Part shown: positions 1,813-15,949 of the stretch, in pieces
How positions within the stretch are numbered: the first letter of the stretch is position 1
Layout of the letters: every line of letters begins with the position of its first letter
NCBI RefSeq assembly: GCF_015690345.1
Contig: NZ_JADPUN010000257.1
Coordinates: 1-64,000, forward strand
Direction: 5' to 3'
Source: Plantactinospora alkalitolerans
Lineage (GTDB): Bacteria > Actinomycetota > Actinomycetes > Mycobacteriales > Micromonosporaceae
Length of the DNA stretch: 64,000 nucleotides
The notes under the pieces: generated by a model
Told to the model about the DNA's origin: nothing
The model's database searches: none
Seen by the model: only the letters and a program-made list of their open reading frames with translations
Made by a program: the position numbers and the translations under genes

Positions 1813-3222
1813 GTGTTCGAGAAGATCCTGATCGCGAATCGAGGCGAGATAGCGCTCAGGGTGGCGCGGGCCTGCCGCGAACTGGGCGTACGCTCCGTCG
1901 CGGTGTACTCGGTCGCGGACCGGGATTCCGCCGTCGTACGCCTGGCCGACGAGGCGGTCTGCATCGGGCCGGCGGACGCCCGGCAGAGCTACCTGAACGC
2001 CGCCGCCATCATCGAGGCGGCCCGGAAGACCGGGGCCGAGGCCATCCATCCGGGCTACGGCTTCCTGTCCGAGGACGCCGACTTCGCCGAGATCTGCGCA
2101 GACAACGGGTTTGTCTTCATCGGGCCCCGGCCCGAGGTGATGGCGGCGCTGGGCGACAAGTCGAAGGCGCGGGCGTTGATGGGCGACGCCGGTCTTCCGC
2201 TTCCGCCGGGCAGCCTGGCAACCCTCGACACGGTGGCCCAGGCCAGAGCGGTGGCCGAGGAGATCGGCTACCCGGTGATCATCAAATGCGCCGCCGGTGG
2301 TGGCGGCCGGGGCATGTCGGTCGTGCACTCCGCCGAAGACCTCGCCTCGGCGTACGACCGGACCCGGGTCGTCGCGCAGGCCGCGTTCGGCGACGACCGG
2401 GTCTACGTCGAGCGCTATCTCAACCCGGCCCGGCACGTCGAGGTGCAGGTGCTCTGTGACGGGTACGGCAACGGCGTGCACCTCGGGACCCGGGACTGTT
2501 CGGTGCAGCGGCGGCATCAGAAGCTGATCGAGGAGGGTCCGGCGCCGGCGTTGTCGGGAGTAACCCTCGACGCGATCGCCGAGACCGCCCTGCGTGGCGC
2601 GCTCCGGGCCGGCTACACCGGGGCCGGGACCTTCGAGTTCCTGGTCGACGAGGCGGAGCGCTTCCAGTTCATCGAGATCAACTGTCGGATCCAGGTCGAG
2701 CATCCGGTGACGGAGATGATCACCGGTGTCGACCTGGTGCACGAGCAGTTGCACATCGCCGGGGGCGTACCGCTGCGGCTGCGCCAGGAGGACGTACGAC
2801 TCCAGGGTGTCGCCATCGAGTGCCGGGTCAACACCGAGGACCCGGACCGCAACTTCCTCCCCACTCCCGGCCGGCTCACCAGGTTCACCCCGCCGAGCGG
2901 GCCCGGCACGCGGACCGACACCCACGGCTATCCGGGCTACCTGGTCGGCCCGTACTACGACTCGCTGCTCGCCAAGGTTGTGGTCTGGGCGCCGGACCGG
3001 GACCTGGCGCTCGGCCGGATGGAACGGGCGCTGCACGAGTTCGAGGTCGACGGCCCCGGCGTACACACCACCATCCCGTTCATCCGACGGGTCCTCGACG
3101 ACGCGGGATTCCGCAAGGGGCGGTACTCGACCGGACTGGTCGACCGACTGCTCGGCGCGCCCGATTCGGCGAAGGAATCCGTTCCGGCCAGTTCGGCGCA
3201 TCTTTCGAGGAGGACCAGATGA
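1813..3222 (+). CDS. accC: Biotin carboxylase subunit of acetyl-CoA carboxylase
   Basis: ATP-grasp enzyme that carboxylates the biotin of AccB with bicarbonate and ATP. The N-terminal FEKILIANRGEIALR, the Gly-rich loop GGGGRGM at 162-168 and the late QVEHPVTE motif are all canonical. 469 aa, close to the usual about 450, with a short Ser-rich tail. GTG start at 1813. Its stop overlaps the start of the ACP-cyclase gene by ATGA, tying ACC translation to the polyketide genes. A separate housekeeping ACC is expected elsewhere in the genome, so this copy is probably pathway-dedicated (inference). Confidence 0.95.
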   Translation: MFEKILIANRGEIALRVARACRELGVRSVAVYSVADRDSAVVRLADEAVCIGPADARQSYLNAAAIIEAARKTGAEAIHPGYGFLSEDADFAEICADNGFVFIGPRPEVMAALGDKSKARALMGDAGLPLPPGSLATLDTVAQARAVAEEIGYPVIIKCAAGGGGRGMSVVHSAEDLASAYDRTRVVAQAAFGDDRVYVERYLNPARHVEVQVLCDGYGNGVHLGTRDCSVQRRHQKLIEEGPAPALSGVTLDAIAETALRGALRAGYTGAGTFEFLVDEAERFQFIEINCRIQVEHPVTEMITGVDLVHEQLHIAGGVPLRLRQEDVRLQGVAIECRVNTEDPDRNFLPTPGRLTRFTPPSGPGTRTDTHGYPGYLVGPYYDSLLAKVVVWAPDRDLALGRMERALHEFEVDGPGVHTTIPFIRRVLDDAGFRKGRYSTGLVDRLLGAPDSAKESVPASSAHLSRRTR

Positions 3223-4172
3223 CCGTGAGACACGAGGACCCGGCGTTGGCCGAGCCGTTCCGACCCGGAGGGGAGCCGGTCCGCAGTGTGGCGGAGCCCG
3301 GCGGGCCGGCGCAGGCGACCGAGGCGGAGATTATCGCGATCCTGGTCCGGCACTGCGGCCTGGACGCCGGGGCCGCGACGGCGGCGCCGACGGCCTCGCT
3401 GGAGCAGCTCGGCATGGACTCGTTGGCGCTGCTCGAACTGCAGGCGGTGGTCGCGGACCGTTACCGGGTCCAGCTTCCGGAGGAGGCCGGGCAGTTCAGC
3501 ATCGAGGAGATCTCCGACCTCGTCGTGCGGCAGTCCGCTGCGGAGGCGGGAGCGGCCGGCCCGCAGGACGGACGACCCGCCGGGGGCGACGGTCGACCCG
3601 CCGGTGGCGACGGTCGGCCCGGTCACACCGAGAACAGCGTGGTGATCGCGGCCCCGCCGCAACTGGTCTGGGAACGGACCAACGACGTCGCGAGCTGGAC
3701 GGGGCTGTTCACCGAGTACCAGTCGGTGCAGATTCTCGAACAACAGGGCGACACCGTCCGATTCCGGTTGACCATGTATCCGGACGAGAACGGTGTGACC
3801 TGGAGCTGGGTCAGTGAGCGCACCGCCGATCCGGCCCGGCGCGAGGTGCACGCGCACCGGGTGGAGACCGGGCCCTTCGAGCACATGCGGATCCACTGGC
3901 GGTACGACGAGGTGCCGGGCGGTACCCGGATGACCTGGACCCAGGACTTCGAGATGCGCCCGACCGCCCCGGTGACCACCGCCCAGATGACCGACCGGAT
4001 CAATACCAACAGTCGGGTGCAACTGGACCTCATCCGGGACAAGCTCGAGCGGATCGCCGCCGAACTCGCGGCCGGCGCCCTGCCGGAGCAGTCGGTCGGC
4101 ATGTCCGCCGGATCGCCGGCCGCCGGACCCGTCGGCACGGCGGCCGTGACGGTCGGGAGCGGCGATGAGTGA
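3219..4172 (+). CDS. Acyl carrier protein fused to polyketide aromatase/cyclase
   Basis: 317 aa with two domains. Residues about 33-106 are an acyl carrier protein with GMDSL; the phosphopantetheine-bearing Ser is 68. A linker at 107-136 contains DGRPAGG repeats. Residues about 138-285 are a SRPBCC/START-like polyketide cyclase of the TcmN/WhiE-VI kind (starts [14 protein letters not shown], then [14 protein letters not shown]). In the well-known type II clusters (whiE, tcm) these are separate proteins. The fusion would keep the nascent poly-beta-ketone next to its first-ring cyclase. Start at 3219 chosen because it overlaps the accC stop and the ACP begins just after; the frame remains open upstream. 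Overlaps the cupin gene by 8 bases. Confidence 0.88.
3567..3623 (+). repeat. In-frame 21-bp repeat in the ACP-cyclase linker
   Basis: About 2.5 units starting at 3567, 3588 and 3609 encode [20 protein letters not shown]. The repeat sits exactly between the carrier and cyclase domains. Confidence 0.85.
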
Positions 4173-4725
4173 GCACGATCGCCGGCTGATGGCCGCCCGG
4201 GACGTCGCGCCGGACCGCCGCCGGGGCGGCGAGATCCGCGTGCTGCTCGGCCCGCGCACGGTCGGCAGCACCTCCGGCTTCATGGGCGTGGCGAACCTCG
4301 CCCCGGGCGAGCGCATCGCCGAGCACTACCACCCCTACAGCGAGGAGTTCCTGTACGTCGCCCGTGGTGAACTGATCGTCGATCTCGACGACGAGCCGGT
4401 GCCGGTACGTACCGGAGAGGCCCTCTACATACCGGTCAATGTCCGGCACCGGCTGCGCAACGTGGCGGACGGGCCCGCCGAGGTGGTATTCCAGCTCGGG
4501 CCGCTCGCGCCTCGGCCGGAACTCGGGCACGTCGACACCGAGTCGGCTGCCTCTGCGGCGGAGGCTGCGTCTGCGGCGGAGGCTGCGTCTGGGGCGGAGG
4601 CTGCGTCTGGGGTAGCGGCAGCGTCTGGGGCAGAGGCAGTGAATGCGGCGGGGGCGGAGGCGGCGACCCTTGGCGGCCGGCGGGAGGCCGGGGTTCTCAG
4701 CGGCCGGTCCGAGGCCGCGCCGTGA
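4165..4725 (+). CDS. Cupin-fold polyketide cyclase (TcmJ-like)
   Basis: Residues 1-125 form a single cupin with the metal-binding set His54, His56, Glu60 or Glu61 ([18 protein letters not shown]) and His95 (VNVRHRLRN). Small cupins of this kind assist later ring closure in aromatic type II polyketide pathways. The last about 60 residues are an Ala/Ser/Glu repeat tail coded by an 18-bp unit, absent from typical family members. It overlaps both neighbours by a few bases, so it is in the PKS operon. Confidence 0.85.
4546..4645 (+). repeat. In-frame 18-bp tandem repeat at the cupin C-terminus
   Basis: About five degenerate copies of a unit coding for AEAAS(A/G). Later copies differ mainly by single substitutions. 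Confidence 0.85.
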
Positions 4726-5993
4726 CCGGGCGGCGGGCCGTGGTGACCGGAATCGGAGTGGTCGCCCCGGGTGGAGTCACCCGGGGCAGCTTCTGGGACA
4801 CCATCACCGCCGGCCGGACGGCCACCCGGCGGATCACTTTCTTCGACCCGTCGCCGTTCCGCTCCCAGATCGCCGCCGAGTGCGACTTCGACCCGGTCCG
4901 GGCCGGCCTCACTGACGCGGAACAACAGCGGTCCGACCGGTACGTCCAGTTTGCCCTGGCGGCCTCGATCGAGGCACTGTCGGACAGCGGTCTGGAGTTG
5001 TCCGACCCGCTGCGGGAGCGCGCCGGGGTGGTGCTCGGCTCGGCGGTCGGCGGCACCACGCTGCTGGAACGGGAGTACGTGGCGGTCAGCGACTCCGGCG
5101 CGGACTGGCTGGTCGACCCGGACCGGGCCGGACCGTTCCTGTACCAGGCTCTGATGCCGAGCAGCCTCGCCGCCGACGTCGCCTGCCGGCACGGGCTGCA
5201 CGGCCCGGCCCAGGTGATCTCCACCGGTTGCACCTCCGGAATCGACGCGATCGGGTACGGCCAGCAGTTGATCGAGGACGGCGAGGCCGACGTGATGCTG
5301 GCCGGCGCCTCGGACAGTCCGATCTCACCGGTCACCGTCGCCTCGTTCGACGCGATCAGGGCGACCACCCCGGACAACGACGATCCGGCGCACGCCTCCC
5401 GCCCGTTCGACCGGGACCGGCACGGGTTCGTGCTCGCCGAGGGTGCCGCCGTGCTCGTCCTGGAGGAGGCGGAACACGCCCGGCGGCGCGGCGCCCGGGT
5501 CTACTGCGAGGCCGCCGGGTACGCCAACCGGAGCAACGGTTACCACATGACCGGTCTCCGTCCGGACGGCGTCGAGATGGCGCTGGCGATCGACGACGCG
5601 ATGGCGCAGGCCCGGTGTGATCCGGAGGACGTCTCGTACATCAGCGCACACGGCTCGGGCACCCGGCAGAACGACCGGCACGAGACGGCGGCATTCAAGC
5701 GGGCGCTGGGCGGCGCGGCGTACCAGGTCCCGATCAGTTCGATCAAGTCGATGGTCGGGCACTCGCTCGGTGCGATCGGCGCGATCGAGATGGCGGCCTG
5801 CGCGCTCGCCATCGAGTTCGGCGTGGTGCCGCCGACCGCGAACTGGGTCAACCGGGACGCGGAATGCGACCTGGACTACATCCCGAACGTGGCCCGGGAA
5901 CTTCCGGTGCGGGTGGCGTTGTCGGTGGGCAGCGGGTTCGGCGGCTTCCAGTCGGCGATGGTCTTCACCCGGTTCGACGGGGCGGAACGGTGA
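4722..5993 (+). CDS. Type II polyketide ketosynthase alpha (KS-alpha)
   Basis: Condensing subunit of the minimal aromatic PKS. The nucleophile is Cys170 ([10 protein letters not shown]), with His310 ([15 protein letters not shown]) and His347 ([12 protein letters not shown]) completing the Cys-His-His triad. 423 aa is the normal size. GTG start at 4722 overlaps the cupin stop; the chain length factor start overlaps its own stop. This gene, the chain length factor and the ACP domain of the 3219-4172 product make up the minimal PKS. No ketoreductase or acyltransferase is seen in the window. Confidence 0.96.
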
Positions 5994-7270
5994 CCGCCCG
6001 GGCGGTGATCACCGGGATCGGCGTGGTCGCGCCGAGCGGAATCGGTGCGGACGCGCACTGGAAGTGCGTCCTCGCCGGTCAGAACCGGATCGGTCGGATC
6101 ACGCTGTTCGATCCGGACCGGTACCCCGGCCAGTTGGCGGGGGAGGTGGCGGACTTCGACGCGCTGCACTACGCCGACAACCGGCAGGTGGTGCAGACGG
6201 ACCGGTGGACGCATCTCGGGTTCGCCGCCACCCGGCTCGCGCTCGCCGACGCGGCCCTGCCGGAGGTGGCCGACGATCCGTACGGCTACGCGGTGACCCT
6301 GGCCAGTTCGTCCGGCGGCAACCTGTTCGGTCAGCGCGAACTCCAGCGGCTCTGGCGCGGCCCGGCCCGGACGGTGGGGGCGTACCAGTCGATCGCCTGG
6401 TTCTACGCGGCGAGCGTCGGTCAGATCTCCATCCGGCACCAGTTCAAGGGCCCGTGCGGGGTGCTCGCCGCAGAGGCCGCCGGTGGGCTGGACAGCCTGG
6501 CGCACGCCGCCCGCATGATCCGTCGGGGTACTCCGGTGGTGCTCGCGGGCGGCACCGAGTGTCCACTGAGCCCGTACGCGCTGACCTGCCAGCTCCGCAG
6601 TGGGCTGCTGAGCGCGTGCCCCGAACCGGACCGGGCGTACCGGCCGTTCGACGTGGCGGCCAGCGGGTACGTTCCGGGCGAGGGCGGTGCGGTCTTCGTG
6701 GTCGAGGATCTGGACCACGCCCTGGCCCGGGGCGCGGACACCATCTACGCCGAGGTCGCCGGTTGGGGCGCGAGCCACGACGCCCGGCACACCGACCAGC
6801 CCGCCGGCGCCGGCCCGCTCGACGGTGGCGATGTCGACGGTACCCAGTACGCGCGGGCGATCCGACTCGCCCTGACCCGTGCCCAGATCGACCCGGCCGA
6901 GGTGGACGTCGTCTTCCCGGACGCGCTCGGCGTGCCCCGGTACGACCGGAGCGAGGCGGCGGCGCTGCGCACGGTGTTCGGGCAGCAGCCGCCGCCGGTG
7001 ACCACGCAGAAGCCGTTGACGGGCCGTGCCCACCAGGGCGGGTCAGCGCTGGACGTCGCCACCGCCCTGTTGGCGATGCGGCACGGCACACTGCCGCCGA
7101 CCGCTGGCCCGGACCGCCCGGCGCCCGGCTGCGAGCTGGACTTCGTCCGGGAGTCCGGGCCACGGCGGGTGGACGTCGCGCTGGTCTGTGCCCGTGGATT
7201 CGATGGTTTCAACAGTGCCGTGGCGCTGCGGCGCGGCCCGGTGGAGGTGTCCAGATGGCGGAGAGTATGA
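5990..7270 (+). CDS. Type II polyketide chain length factor (KS-beta) lacking the hallmark Gln
   Basis: Partner of KS-alpha that sets chain length. 426 aa from the GTG at 5990, which overlaps the KS stop. It aligns with chain length factors through HQFKGPCGV at 150-158, but the motif that normally reads (T/D)EQAGG here reads AEAAGG, so the position of the hallmark Gln is Ala163. The rest of the fold appears intact. Family knowledge: this Gln has been linked to decarboxylative priming in KS-beta and KS-Q domains, so priming may differ here (inference). Confidence 0.94.
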
Positions 7271-7590
7271 CCGAGACGGCCAAGGGACGGGTGGTGTTCC
7301 TGATCCGGGTGCCGCAGGATCGCACCGCGGCGTTCCTGGATGCCTACCAGCGGATTCGTTACCAGGTCGCCGAGGGGGTGGACGGACACCTGGTGGACCA
7401 GGTGTGCGCGTCCCCGACCGATCCGGAACAGTGGCTGATCACCAGCGAGTGGGTCTCGCTGGGCCACTTCGAGGCGTGGGAGCGCAGTCCCGAGCACCGG
7501 AAGCTGGTCGGTCCGATGCGGGCCTGCATGACCGAGGCGAAGTCGATCCGGTTCGAGGTCCGGGAGCAGACCTCGGCCCGCCGTTCCTGA
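7255..7590 (+). CDS. ABM-family monooxygenase-like protein
   Basis: 111-aa ferredoxin-fold protein of the antibiotic biosynthesis monooxygenase type (VVFLIRVPQDRTAAFLDAY, then WLITSEWVSLGHFEAWERS). Members oxidise aromatic polyketides to quinones without added cofactor. Start at 7255 preferred because GGAGG lies 7 bases upstream; an in-frame ATG at 7267 is the alternative. It overlaps the end of the chain length factor and appears to be the last gene of the PKS operon. Confidence 0.85.
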   Translation: MAESMTETAKGRVVFLIRVPQDRTAAFLDAYQRIRYQVAEGVDGHLVDQVCASPTDPEQWLITSEWVSLGHFEAWERSPEHRKLVGPMRACMTEAKSIRFEVREQTSARRS

Positions 7591-7605: not shown

Positions 7606-8019
7606 CTACGCCGCCGCGGTGCCGAACGGGTTGTCGATGACGTACCGCCAGCGGCCGTCGGGGCCACGTCGTGCCACGTCGGTCGCGGTGCCCTCCAGGT
7701 GCACCCGCTGGCCGTCGGTGCCTGTGCCGTCGATCTTCCAGTCGACGAGAAGCAGGGCGACGTCGTCGGCCACGTAGACGTGTCGTGGGCGGACCTCGAT
7801 CGGCAGGCCCAGGGCCAGGAAACGTTGGTTGGCCGCCGCCCGGGCCGGCCCTGTCACGGGTCGACCCGGCGTGGGGACCAGGACCGCACCCGGTTCATAG
7901 ACCCGCTCGACGGCGGCGGCGTCCCCGGTGTTGAAGGCACGAGCGAAGATCCGGGGATGTTCGCCTGGGTCGTCGGTCAGGCCGACACTGTCCGGGTGGA
8001 TGTTGAACTCGAACGTCAT
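7606..8019 (-). CDS. SnoaL/NTF2-like domain protein
   Basis: 137-aa protein of the NTF2-like superfamily (SnoaL_3/DUF4440 type): HPRIFARAFNTGDAAAVERVYE then a conserved beta-sheet with LLLVDWKIDGTG. Such proteins are small enzymes or ligand-binding proteins; the substrate cannot be told. ATG at 8019 selected because the family N-terminus begins there; the frame is open further upstream. Divergent from the HxlR regulator, with a palindrome between them, so it is the likely regulatory target. Confidence 0.75.
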   Translation of the reverse strand: MTFEFNIHPDSVGLTDDPGEHPRIFARAFNTGDAAAVERVYEPGAVLVPTPGRPVTGPARAAANQRFLALGLPIEVRPRHVYVADDVALLLVDWKIDGTGTDGQRVHLEGTATDVARRGPDGRWRYVIDNPFGTAAA

Positions 8020-8439
8020 GCGCTCAGCCAAGCCGACGCTGTCGCAGGTAACCAAGCGGTTAGTAGCGGCTGGGATCGGGATCTGGTCCCGGACGGTCGA
8101 GGCGAGACACGGCGTCCGGAGCCGACGTGCCCGGTGGAGGTCGCGCTCGCCGCCGTGAGCGGTCGGTGGACGACGCTCATCCTGCGCGAACTGATGCACG
8201 GGCCCCGCTCGTTCGGTCAGCTACGGGTCGCGTTGCCGACGCTGAGCGCCAAGGTCCTGAGCGAGAGACTGACCAAACTGGTGCGGCACGACCTGGTCGA
8301 GTGCCGCCGCCAGAAGGGTTTCCCGTCGCAGGTCGTCTACCGCCTCACCACCGCCGGCCAGCTGCTCAGGCCGTTGCTCATCGAGCTCTACCGGACCGGG
8401 GACGCACTGCTGCGTCAGTCCCGGCGACTTCCAGATTGA
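7996..8439 (+). CDS. HxlR-family transcriptional regulator (start uncertain)
   Basis: Winged-helix MarR-like regulator of HxlR type: CPVEVALAAVSGRWTTLILREL, then LPTLSAKVLSERLTKL and VYRLTTAGQ. The N-terminal Cys-Pro that senses electrophiles in several family members is present. No ATG lies close to the domain: candidate starts are GTG 7996 (used here, overlapping the opposing gene) and GTG 8134 (101 aa, losing the Cys-Pro). It probably controls the divergent SnoaL-like gene. Confidence 0.7.
   Translation: MDVELERHALSQADAVAGNQAVSSGWDRDLVPDGRGETRRPEPTCPVEVALAAVSGRWTTLILRELMHGPRSFGQLRVALPTLSAKVLSERLTKLVRHDLVECRRQKGFPSQVVYRLTTAGQLLRPLLIELYRTGDALLRQSRRLPD
8049..8062. promoter_or_regulatory. Candidate HxlR operator
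   Basis: Inverted repeat TAACC-4 bp-GGTTA just upstream of the SnoaL-like gene and inside the possible 5' end of the HxlR gene. Dyads of this size are typical targets of HxlR dimers; assignment is by position only. Confidence 0.4.
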
Positions 8440-8517: not shown

Positions 8518-9942
8518 ATGTCCGCCCCGTCGTCCCGCCGGACCGCGCTGACCGCATCCGTCGTGCTCGGTCTCGTCGCCGGAATCCTGGTCCTGCCCGA
8601 CCGGGCGGTGGCGGCGGCGCCGGTGATCACCCGGCTCGGCGACACCCAGCTCGACGCGACGGCGCTCTACTTCGTCTCCTACGACGGACTGGTGAACAAC
8701 AACTCGTTCGCCGACGGCATCGTCAGTCACGCCGGATACCAGTACGCGGCCTGGTACACCTCGACCCGGCACGCCGTCCTCGCCCGTCGCCAACTGCCCT
8801 CCGGAGCCTGGCAGACCCTCCGGCTGCCGCACCAGTTGACGGCGAACGACTCGCACAACTCCATCTCCCTGGGCATCTCCCCGGGCGACGGACGGCTGCA
8901 CATCGCGATGGACACCCACGACACCGACATCCACTACCTCAGGTCCGAGGCCGGGCTCGTCTCCGCGCCGGGCTCCCGAAGCTGGGAGGCCGGCCGGTTC
9001 GGCGCGGTGCAGCGTAGCCTCGACGGCCTCGGACTCGGCGCCATGACGTACCCGCAGTTCCGCCTCGCCCCCGGCAACCGGCTACAGCTCAGCTACCGCA
9101 CCGGCCGATCCGGCAACGGCACCAACGAACTGGCCGAGTACGACGGCTCCACCTGGCGCCGGTTCGGCCGTTGGCAGTCGGCGTCCGGGTCGTACTCCGC
9201 CAACGGGGCGACCAGCACCACCCGGAACATGTATCTGCACGGGCTCAGCTACGGCCCCGGTGGCCGGCTGCACGCCGCGTTCACCTGGCGGGAGGGCAAC
9301 TCGGCGGTCACCTGCAACAGCGGTGGCCTCACCAACCACGACACCGGATACGTCTACAGCGACGACCAGGGGCGGACCTGGCGCAACAATGCCGGGACCC
9401 TCGTCGGCACCACCGGCGGAAGCGGTCTGGTGTCGATCTCCAGCCCGGGACTCGTGGTCGATCCGCTGCCGCCGAACTACGGGCTGATCAACCAGGAGAG
9501 CCAGGACGTCGACTCGGCCGGCAACCCGCACGTCATCATCAGCTACGTGCCAGGCCGGTTCACCTCGTGCGTCACCTCGTACGCGTCCGCGCGCCGCGCC
9601 AACGGCCGGGCCTTCCACCTGCTCCGCAACTCCTCAGGGGGCTGGCGCAAGGTCGAGATCCCGGTCGCGCTGAACGCCACGGGCCGGTCCCAGCTCGTGC
9701 TCGACGCCGCCGACAACGCGTACGTCGTGCTGCCGTACGGCCGGATCGTCACCGCCAGCAAGGCCAGTGGCTACACCGACTGGACCGTACGCTTCGACGG
9801 CGCCGGCCTGAGCGCCTTCGGCGAGATCGTGGTGGACCGGACCCGGGTGAAGAGCGACGGCATCCTGTCGATCATGTACCAGCGGACGTCCAGCGGTAGC
9901 ACCCCGTCCCCGATCCGGGTCGTCGACTTCCGGCTCGGCTGA
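8518..9942 (+). CDS. Secreted BNR-repeat protein (possible polysaccharide lyase or hydrolase)
   Basis: 474 aa with a signal peptide (Arg-rich start, hydrophobic 12-28, AVAAA cleavage region near 33). The mature part resembles BNR_4 beta-propeller proteins: a conserved opening NNSFADGIVSHAGYQYAAWYTS, NSISLGISPGDGRLHIAMDTHD, and Asp-box-like YSDDQGRTW. Related proteins include ulvan-lyase-type enzymes, but catalytic identity cannot be fixed by eye. ATG at 8518 has GAGGGAG upstream. No co-transcribed partner; it stands alone after the HxlR gene. Confidence 0.75.
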   Translation: MSAPSSRRTALTASVVLGLVAGILVLPDRAVAAAPVITRLGDTQLDATALYFVSYDGLVNNNSFADGIVSHAGYQYAAWYTSTRHAVLARRQLPSGAWQTLRLPHQLTANDSHNSISLGISPGDGRLHIAMDTHDTDIHYLRSEAGLVSAPGSRSWEAGRFGAVQRSLDGLGLGAMTYPQFRLAPGNRLQLSYRTGRSGNGTNELAEYDGSTWRRFGRWQSASGSYSANGATSTTRNMYLHGLSYGPGGRLHAAFTWREGNSAVTCNSGGLTNHDTGYVYSDDQGRTWRNNAGTLVGTTGGSGLVSISSPGLVVDPLPPNYGLINQESQDVDSAGNPHVIISYVPGRFTSCVTSYASARRANGRAFHLLRNSSGGWRKVEIPVALNATGRSQLVLDAADNAYVVLPYGRIVTASKASGYTDWTVRFDGAGLSAFGEIVVDRTRVKSDGILSIMYQRTSSGSTPSPIRVVDFRLG

Positions 9943-14343: not shown

Positions 14344-15765
14344 TCAGGCGGGTAGCCGCCAGACCTGGTTGGCGCCGCCGAAGCAGTCCCAGATCTGCAG
14401 CCGGGTGCCGTCGGCAGAACTGTTGTCGGTGGCGTCCAGGCACTTGTTCGAGGCCGGGTTTCGCAGCGTGCCATTGCCCTGGGCCTGCCACACCTGTGCT
14501 CCGGTGCCGTTGCAGTCGTAGAGCTGCACCTTCGCGCCGTTGGTCGTCGCGGCCGCGGTGATGTCGGCGCACTTGCCGAGCGCCCGCAGCGTGCTGTCGG
14601 TACCGACCGTCCAGCGCTGGGCGTTGCTGCCGTTGCAGGCGAAGAGCTGGACCGCGGCGCCGTTGGCGGTGGACGCTCCGGCCACGTCGACGCACTTGCC
14701 GCCGATGCCGGTGATCTGTCCGGTCGGGCCGCCGGTGGGCGGCGTCGTGCCGCCCATCACCGTGTCGTAGATGGCGCTGACCAGCGAGGTGGCGTTGTTG
14801 GTGTCCTGGGAGAGTTCCCAGTTCATCATGCCGCCGGCATTGGCCAGGGCCCACTGTGTCTTACGCTTCACGGTCGGGATGCCGTTGTAGCACTGCTGCG
14901 CCCCACCGGCGGTGGTGCAGTCCCGGTTGGCGTTCGCCGGGTCCATCGCGACCAGGGCGGAGTAGGTGTGGTACCCGGGTCGGCTGTAGAACGGCACGCC
15001 CAGTACGGCCTTGCTGGCCGGCAGGCCACGGGACTTCCAGATGTTGACGCTGTTGATCGACCAGTCGTAGTTGGCGTGCGGGCTGCCGCCGTCGTACGCC
15101 ATGATGTTGAGCCAGTCGACGTAGCCGAAGACGGCCGGCTGCACCCCGTTCACGCTGCCGCCCTCGGAGACGACGGCTGCGGTCAGCAGCTTGCCGCGAC
15201 TGCGCAACTGGTCGCTCAACTGCTGCATCAGCGCGGTGTAGTTGTTGGCCGAGGTACCCGGGTCCGGATACTCCCAGTCCATGTCGACGCCGTCCAGGTT
15301 GTACTGGGTGACGAAGCTGATCACGCTGTTCACGAACGTGGTCCGGCTGGACGCGTTGCCGGCCAGTGCCTCGAAGGCCGAGTCGTCACCGTCGTTCCAG
15401 CCGCCGATCGCGATCGACACCTTGACGTTGCTGCCATGGGCCCGTGACACCAGCGTGGAGAGCTTGCTCGGGTTCTCCACCGCCCGCAGCGTCCCGTTCG
15501 CGTTCGGTAGGACGAAGGCGTAGTTGATGTGGGTCAGCTTGCCGTACTGGATGGTGTTGACGTCGCCGGCCCAGCTCGGCATGTAGCCGACGCTCTTGAA
15601 GCTGTTGGGCAGGACGACGGCCTCGGCGGGGGAGTCCGGGGCGATGGCGAGGGTGGTTCCGGCCGCTGCGGTGGCGAGCGCGAGCGCCCCGGTGGACAGG
15701 ATGGAGCGGGCGGCGTGGCGACGTCCCGGCCGGTGGGCCCGCTCGGCGCTCATGGTGGATGACAT
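14344..15765 (-). CDS. Secreted chitinase, GH18 with C-terminal ricin-B (CBM13) domain
   Basis: 473 aa. Tat/Sec-like signal (RRHAARSILSTGALALATAAAG), a GH18 barrel at about 52-335 with catalytic DxxDxDxE at Asp158-Glu165 (DGVDMDWE), a PPTGGPTG linker, then a three-lobed ricin-B lectin with repeated Q-x-W motifs (AQRW, AQVW, NQVW). It hydrolyses chitin outside the cell. ATG 15765 is preceded by AAGGGA. The frame is open upstream to 15978 but that part is not family-like and overlaps the promoter. Confidence 0.93.
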   Translation of the reverse strand: MSSTMSAERAHRPGRRHAARSILSTGALALATAAAGTTLAIAPDSPAEAVVLPNSFKSVGYMPSWAGDVNTIQYGKLTHINYAFVLPNANGTLRAVENPSKLSTLVSRAHGSNVKVSIAIGGWNDGDDSAFEALAGNASSRTTFVNSVISFVTQYNLDGVDMDWEYPDPGTSANNYTALMQQLSDQLRSRGKLLTAAVVSEGGSVNGVQPAVFGYVDWLNIMAYDGGSPHANYDWSINSVNIWKSRGLPASKAVLGVPFYSRPGYHTYSALVAMDPANANRDCTTAGGAQQCYNGIPTVKRKTQWALANAGGMMNWELSQDTNNATSLVSAIYDTVMGGTTPPTGGPTGQITGIGGKCVDVAGASTANGAAVQLFACNGSNAQRWTVGTDSTLRALGKCADITAAATTNGAKVQLYDCNGTGAQVWQAQGNGTLRNPASNKCLDATDNSSADGTRLQIWDCFGGANQVWRLPA

Positions 15766-15949
15766 CAACGATCCCTTCTGTCGCTGGCGCCTCAGTGGAT
15801 CGGTCCGACCCGTGCGCCGCCGCCCGCCCTCGGCGCGGGCGCACGGACCGGTGGTGGAGGGTGCTGCAGAGGCCGCCGGTGCTGGGGGTGAGCAGGTTCC
15901 GGCGCCTCTGCCGGGGGCGGGTCGGGATCGATGTGGCTGAGTGGCTGAA

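Follow-up and report, generated by a model that had tools for sequence, protein, structure and literature searches.

Among type II polyketide synthases (PKS), the whiE spore-pigment cluster of Streptomyces coelicolor comprises SCO5314-5321 (available part of PMC4255298), and its aromatase/cyclase (ARO/CYC), WhiE ORFVI, is represented in the Protein Data Bank (PDB) by the structures 3tl1 and 3tvr, with 2kf2 corresponding to SCO5315. The accessible portion of PMC12664062 assigns the action of the unfused ARO/CYCs WhiE and TcmN to C9-C14 and says that the WhiE enzyme is required for full-chain extension. Clusters resembling whiE are already known from Micromonospora and Salinispora, as far as the available text of PMC5765111 and PMC12838356 goes. 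Here we describe a locus from Plantactinospora alkalitolerans (Micromonosporaceae), situated in a stretch of 64,000 nucleotides (contig NZ_JADPUN010000257.1, positions 1 to 64,000, hereafter "the window"), in which the acyl carrier protein (ACP) and the ARO/CYC of such a system are encoded by a single gene at positions 3219-4172 of the forward strand. Judging from its sequence and from those of its relatives, this fusion is probably the sole carrier of a spore-pigment-type (WhiE-like) type II PKS, from which the chain would be handed to the tethered C9-C14 cyclase, most likely with a benefit from the tether.

The fusion protein and its domains

The gene begins with an ATG preceded by AGGAGG and contains no internal stops. 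Its product of 317 aa consists of an acyl carrier domain (residues 31-111, positions 3309-3551), in which Ser68 belongs to the DSL of the motif LGMDSL, a Gly/Ala/Pro-rich linker (residues 112-133, positions 3552-3617) and an ARO/CYC domain of the WhiE/TcmN type (residues 134-285, positions 3618-4073). In Pfam searches the PP-binding family (PF00550) matched residues 38-89 (E-value 7.4e-05; 23.4 bits, with a gathering score of 20.8) and Polyketide_cyc (PF03364) residues 143-255 (E-value 1.3e-15); no ketosynthase (KS) domain was found in 3219-4172 by this search, the ACP chain being separate from the ketosynthase. The open reading frame (ORF) and the Pfam matches agree exactly with an earlier note on this DNA, made from the sequence alone, which had placed an ACP with Ser68 and an ARO/CYC in one chain of 317 aa at these positions. 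The note had also described the linker as built of repeats. This is true of the window, where TRF detects a 21-nt tandem repeat of 2.6 copies at 3567-3621, most of it inside the linker, but the linkers of the relatives differ in sequence and range from ~3 to ~70 aa, many being only a few residues long. The AlphaFold model of the window protein, for which 48 proteins from the window and the loci were aligned, shows two confident domains (~31-111, predicted to have a helical fold, and ~131-286; pLDDT mostly >90), joined by a stretch of low confidence (residues 111-130, with block pLDDT of 57 and 50); the ends are also of low confidence.

The cyclase domain has the helix-grip fold and is nearest to WhiE and TcmN, not to ZhuI and BexL. 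Foldseek ranked 3tl1, 3tvr, 3tvq and 2rer all ahead of 3tfz and 4xrw, with a TM-score to target of 0.94 for 3tl1 (WhiE ORFVI, 56% identity) and a TM-score of 0.97 for 2rer (TcmN), and phmmer gave 197 and 157 bits for WhiE and TcmN versus 53 and 36 for ZhuI and BexL. We compared the pocket in hand-chosen rows, 29 fused cyclases and 19 of the 43 listed unfused ones, and found W160, Y167, W197, R201 and R214 to be identical in all 48 aligned rows (29/29 fused, 19/19 unfused). Arg201 and Arg214 align with the TcmN arginines that we count on the alignment as R69 and R82, R69 being the conserved pocket arginine of TcmN, whose role is given in PMC12664062. Positions T258, N262, N264 and Q268 vary among the unfused rows; residue 268 is Gln in every fused row (29/29) but in only 12/19 unfused ones. 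We take Q268 to be aligned with N136 of TcmN, and the labelling of the pocket positions other than R201/R69 as equivalents of TcmN/WhiE residues is also our assumption. Because fused and unfused cyclases do not differ at the five pocket positions, the sequences give no sign that the choice of ring was changed by the fusion. The suggestion of the earlier note that the fusion may fix regiochemistry is thus not borne out, the more so as WhiE and TcmN close C9-C14 without being fused, although the constancy of Gln268 calls for some reservation.

Distribution and conservation

The fusion is not peculiar to this genome, a possibility that we reject because it recurs across genera. In a sample of 150 genomes from the family, 75 had some match, and we read out 68 cyclase places with E-value <=1e-20: 38 are fused to the ACP in one frame, 27 are separate genes, and three (L093, L098, L103) have no ACP within 1.2 kb. 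The 38 fused places come from 38 genomes, distributed over genus groups g4 (16), g1 (7), g34 (7), g11 (3) and g2, g6, g21, g22 and g36 (one each). Plantactinospora (g1) has the fusion in 7/7 sampled genomes. In g4, which we take as Micromonospora with Salinispora merged in, 147/151 genomes have a match at E-value <=1e-20, and 60 further loci hand-picked from these 147 genomes were fused without exception, which together with the earlier 16 makes 76/76 g4 genomes read; this readout leaves aside second, less similar cyclase places, e.g. in G797, G775, G830 and G731. Besides Plantactinospora and Micromonospora, the fusion occurs in seven other genus groups of Micromonosporaceae, and altogether in 98 distinct genomes (38 + 40 + 20), the window's and G005 included. 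A scan of named contigs, partly repeating genomes of the family sample, added 35 loci, among them 19 fused (all Plantactinospora/Micromonospora), 14 separate and two without a near ACP. Some contigs are present twice under different labels (L021=L117, L022=L118, L025=L175, L027=L174, L043=L114, L050=L103, L054=L093).

In six of the 38 genomes (G104, G140, G001, G114, G034, G060) there is a further cyclase locus, in which ACP and cyclase are separate; the one in G140, L089, is the only g4 locus read besides the 76 fused ones. Fused and unfused loci thus exist side by side, in six genomes as the pairs L118/L100, L062/L089, L059/L072, L056/L074, L057/L099 and L128/L101.

Outside the family the fusion was found in none of 52 loci hand-picked from the class, 50 of which have ACP and cyclase as separate neighbours and two (L111, L202) no ACP within 1.2 kb. 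Five candidates from outside the family (G237, G423, G479, G205, G345), in which a match spanned both domains, turned out to have separate genes (L104-L108). In a phylum-wide sample matches were obtained in 7/198 genomes, all inside the class.

We surveyed the reading frame in 57 long fused loci, including L073 and with two contigs present twice. All 57 have a single open frame, as do the further g4 loci (40/40 and 20/20). The distance from the DSL to the cyclase takes 17 distinct values between 42 and 92 aa and is in frame throughout, and the DS[LMI] carrier motif is present in 57/57. An ATG with a Shine-Dalgarno-like site precedes the ACP in every one of these loci (AGGAGG in 38, GGAGG in 13, a shorter site in 6), and no such ATG was found near the cyclase start (0/57). 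With a mean dN/dS of ~0.33 (ACP) and ~0.17 (cyclase) over 21 pairs from 7 genus members, both domains show purifying selection. The in-frame conservation, the kept motif and dN/dS together exclude a sequencing artefact and argue against a dead carrier. A sequencing error hiding a stop between the domains, which the earlier note had named as a possible refutation, is rejected, as the same frame is open in all fused relatives across genera; the fusion in a type II PKS is real and conserved, and would allow the chain to pass from carrier to cyclase without changing polypeptides.

The earlier note had also allowed that the fusion might prove common and already characterised. It is common in Micromonosporaceae, but we found no description of an ACP-ARO/CYC fusion in type II PKS in the open-access literature, in such parts of it as were available, subscription journals being mostly outside this search. 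The available text of PMC7949117, PMC12664062, PMC13213394, PMC4383371, PMC12838356, PMC5765111, PMC10132072, PMC3462128, PMC4255298, PMC3848822 and PMC5321127 does not describe it. The fusion may be mentioned elsewhere in the literature or in annotation.

Origin of the fusion

A KSalpha tree was calculated for 110 of 115 rows (114 loci and the window; L050, L054, L093, L094 and L103 have no usable KSalpha), and a more careful one for 54 rows, hand-chosen to thin near-copies; the 60 extra g4 loci were not used in either, and L001-L020 were omitted as repeats of the window and L116-L134. In the 110-row tree, 56 fused rows form one clade (SH-aLRT 97) and only L073, from G005, stands elsewhere; in the 54-row tree the main fused clade has support of 100/99, and 0% of 200 bootstrap trees are compatible with a single change. 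Judging from the KSalpha sequences, the main fused clade is of one origin, and a second, separate origin has apparently taken place in G005, which needs confirmation. In L073 the cyclase lies at 6437-6880 (after orientation) in a cluster ordered TcmI-cupin-KSalpha-KSbeta-ACP/CYC, its linker is short and unlike the others, and its branch in the 54-row tree is long; G005 is a poor assembly (69% complete, 1080 contigs).

Unfused relatives with the order accA-accB-accC-ACP-CYC-cupin-KSalpha-KSbeta are found close to the fused clade (L109, L110, L072, L100) and more widely (L076, L078-L083, L085-L087). Since in them the ACP directly precedes the cyclase in the same order, the fusion joined genes that were already adjacent in the operon. 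In the stretches read, accC adjoins the fusion in 52/57 fused rows; the other five are L030, which lies where its contig stops, L060, L071 and L130, whose stretches contain no acc genes, and L073 with the different order given above.

Other carriers

A search of the window's draft genome for ACPs revealed no second close one, the next match to the ACP of the fusion having an E-value of 0.0085. The window contains a single ACP-bearing ORF, and so do the 35-40 kb surrounding the cluster in each of G058, G113, G105 and G010. Like the shared frame, its conservation, the intact motifs and the origin of the main clade, this is read from the sequences directly.

Locus L024 contains a second small ACP at 15548-15793, ~7 kb downstream and beside another KS-like gene, and a second ACP match was also seen in several other Micromonospora loci. 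We considered whether the cluster has a second ACP, and take the one in L024 to belong, probably, to a neighbouring cluster.

Functional prediction and alternative explanations

Loading, catalysis, transfer in cis, the benefit of the tether and the nature of the product as a pigment are what we infer for this protein. Ser68 of the carrier domain would be phosphopantetheinylated and then loaded with malonate, and the domain would serve KSalpha/KSbeta in every round of elongation. The finished or nearly finished poly-beta-ketone would then be presented to the cyclase domain tethered behind the carrier, which, by analogy to WhiE and TcmN, would close and aromatise the first ring at C9-C14. The benefit of the tether would most likely consist in a high local concentration, a fixed 1:1 ratio of carrier to cyclase, and cyclisation of the reactive chain before it folds spontaneously. 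Since the WhiE ARO/CYC acts at C9-C14 and is said to be needed for full-chain extension, a long and reactive chain would profit from a fixed ratio.

Several points weigh against the prediction of a sole carrier with a useful tether. The linker shows hardly any constraint on its length, as would not be expected of a tuned geometry in cis, and the arrangement of the domains in the window protein is not firm (AlphaFold pTM 0.58, versus 0.77 for L061, a Micromonospora form with a link of ~3 residues). Judging from the model, a carrier on such a short link may be unable to reach the pocket of its own chain and may hand over to a neighbouring molecule; the genera may thus differ, some using hand-over in cis and others hand-over from one molecule to another. 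The product may be cleaved after translation, and a free ACP may be encoded in sequence that the draft assembly lacks. Potential internal starts exist: in 5/57 genes a GTG in frame, preceded by a weak GGAG, lies just within the cyclase, and one gene (L127) has a TTG with GGAG in its linker. Finally, the KSbeta of the fused group lacks a Gln (see below), so that this group differs in other respects too and a change of product need not stem from the fusion.

The drift of the linker from ~3 to ~70 residues also agrees with the alternative that survives best, namely that the stop between two coupled genes was lost once, harmlessly, and became fixed, the domains acting as they do when separate. That the ACP and cyclase were already neighbours and that the pocket positions are unchanged fits this explanation equally well. 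We nevertheless regard it as unlikely, since no unfused row is found inside the main fused clade in either tree, though re-splitting by mutation should be easy, and since the fusion has apparently arisen a second time, in G005.

Far less probable still is that the working parts are separate, either because the fused product is cleaved or because translation from an internal start additionally yields a free cyclase. The long loose linkers of Plantactinospora would permit the former, and for the latter an in-frame GTG occurs near the cyclase start in many genes, preceded by GGAG in the 5/57 already mentioned, and L127 has the TTG in its linker. However, according to the model the GTG codons sit inside the first beta strand, in 62/76 g4 genes the cyclase follows the ACP match after <=36 nt, which leaves little room to cleave, and a search for second products from internal starts in the 57 loci yielded weak candidates only (GTG/TTG). 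The least credible idea is that the carrier domain only aids the cyclase, with another ACP (that of fatty acid synthesis, or one from elsewhere) serving the ketosynthase: the malonyl transferase is indeed shared by fatty acid synthase and PKS, according to the part of PMC12664062 available, but the Ser motif is kept in 57/57 loci, the ACP is under purifying selection, and no close ACP exists elsewhere in the draft genome or beside the cluster in four relatives.

The reading that we prefer, a sole carrier that gains from its tethered cyclase, can be extended to a more daring one, which we offer only tentatively and consider doubtful: these proteins might define a branch of type II PKS with a carrier permanently tethered to its cyclase, in which the KSalpha/KSbeta pair would have to bind a carrier never free of the first-ring cyclase, and cyclase docking, chain length and first-ring closure would be coupled in each round, a step towards type I logic taken apparently twice.

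Genomic context

The genes of the cluster follow one another on the forward strand with short overlaps, in the order accA-accB-accC-[ACP-CYC]-cupin-KSalpha-KSbeta-ABM. Position 1 of the window is the first base of its contig, and the upstream part of the cluster is therefore cut off inside accA (carboxyltransferase alpha part, 1-1104, open at the contig start). This gene is followed by accB (biotin carboxyl carrier protein, 1101-1793) and accC (biotin carboxylase, 1813-3222), which overlaps the fusion gene by 4 nt. The acyl-CoA carboxylase genes probably supply malonyl-CoA to the pathway. In two Plantactinospora loci, L021 (3412-5796) and L022 (3532-5577), a single ORF comprises accA and an accD part, the latter with a zinc ribbon and a carboxyl transferase.

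Downstream, a cupin gene (4165-4725) overlaps the fusion gene by 8 nt; from its position we presume it to be WhiE-II/TcmJ-like. KSalpha (4722-5993) and KSbeta, the chain length factor (CLF; 5990-7270, with a GTG start that we assigned), have the actinorhodin KS, 1tqy_A, and 1tqy_B, respectively, as their best solved relatives, and the cupin/KSalpha and KSalpha/KSbeta overlaps are 4 nt each. These overlaps suggest that translation of the fusion gene is coupled with that of KSalpha/KSbeta. Next comes an ABM-family monooxygenase-like protein (7255-7590; Pfam PF03992, E-value 1e-15), followed by an ORF that carries an HxlR-type domain close to the C-terminus (7699-8439) and a BNR_4/rhamnosidase-like protein (8518-9942).

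At residue ~163 the KSbeta of the window has EAAGG where the actinorhodin CLF has EQAGG, and thus lacks the Gln to which we ascribe an active-site role in the latter. In the 57 fused rows this position is occupied by S (29), A (21), T (6) and Q (1), and in 52 separate rows by G (14), Q (13), E (10), R (7), S, T and A (2 each), H (1) and C (1). Glu occurs in the Streptomyces loci ordered cupin-KSalpha-KSbeta-ACP-CYC-TcmI.

Of a whiE-like gene set, the window has KSalpha, KSbeta, ACP, ARO/CYC and the cupin, but no TcmI-like gene; its contig begins inside accA. Most relatives for which the region upstream of accA could be read have TcmI-like genes there; in this region genes for an FAD-dependent monooxygenase and a BTAD/SARP-like regulator accompany a TcmI-like cyclase gene (Cyclase_polyket) and a second TcmI-like gene. 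Locus L033 has two TcmI-like genes, at 2081-2425 (reverse strand) and 3776-4099 (forward strand), and G113 is laid out alike: one of the pair is divergent, beside the FAD monooxygenase and the SARP-like regulator, and the other heads the acc operon.

The whiE-like genes reported in Micromonospora type strains are listed in the available text of PMC5765111 as whiE-ks, -clf, I, II, VI and VII, without V, the carrier. The missing whiEV fits a carrier hidden in the whiEVI homologue, although the authors may not have looked for it. According to PMC12838356, the black spore pigment of S. arenicola is presumably the product of a type II PKS that every strain possesses. Both the Micromonospora genes of PMC5765111 and the Salinispora pigment cluster of PMC12838356 probably represent the same cluster as that of the window.

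Significance and comparison with known systems

The cluster resembles an ordinary whiE-like one, and any effect of the tether is a prediction from sequence. Natural covalent joins between carrier and cyclase, spanning ~3 to ~70 residues, together with unfused relatives of the same gene order, make the value of a tether directly testable, and the fusion offers a portable part. If the idea of a tethered branch were true, it would provide a ready-made answer to the mismatch between ACP and ARO/CYC in engineered pathways.

With respect to classification, KSalpha and KSbeta are on separate polypeptides, as in type II PKS, and not joined with acyltransferase and ACP in one chain as in iterative (non-reducing) type I PKS. 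The carrier is not free-standing in the strict textbook sense and the ARO/CYC is not a mono-domain protein, as the two share a chain. The earlier note's definition of type II systems by their free-standing subunits is somewhat too strict, as the available part of PMC12664062 speaks of "monodomain or didomain polypeptides"; the same text also names the PT of fungal PKS.

Three known systems invite comparison. The window shares with whiE a cyclase 56% identical to 3tl1, as well as KSalpha, KSbeta, ACP, ARO/CYC and the cupin, and its relatives also the TcmI-like cyclase; it differs in that ACP and ARO/CYC form one chain instead of two, in the order of genes (acc-ACP/CYC-cupin-KSalpha-KSbeta, versus cupin-KSalpha-KSbeta-ACP-CYC in the Streptomyces loci) and in the additional carboxylase genes, to which the relatives add a BTAD/SARP-like regulator. 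In fungal non-reducing type I PKS the PT domain, which has another fold, and the ACP belong to one chain, together with all other domains including the KS. There, as in the window, a cyclising domain and a carrier share a polypeptide, whereas KSalpha, KSbeta and the other components of the window are separate. TcmN of the tetracenomycin pathway (2rer) is an ARO/CYC of mono-domain type and C9-C14 specificity that, according to the PDB molecule name, is likewise fused, in its case to an O-methyltransferase. The partner of the cyclase is thus a tailoring enzyme in TcmN, whereas in the protein described here it is the carrier that holds the substrate.

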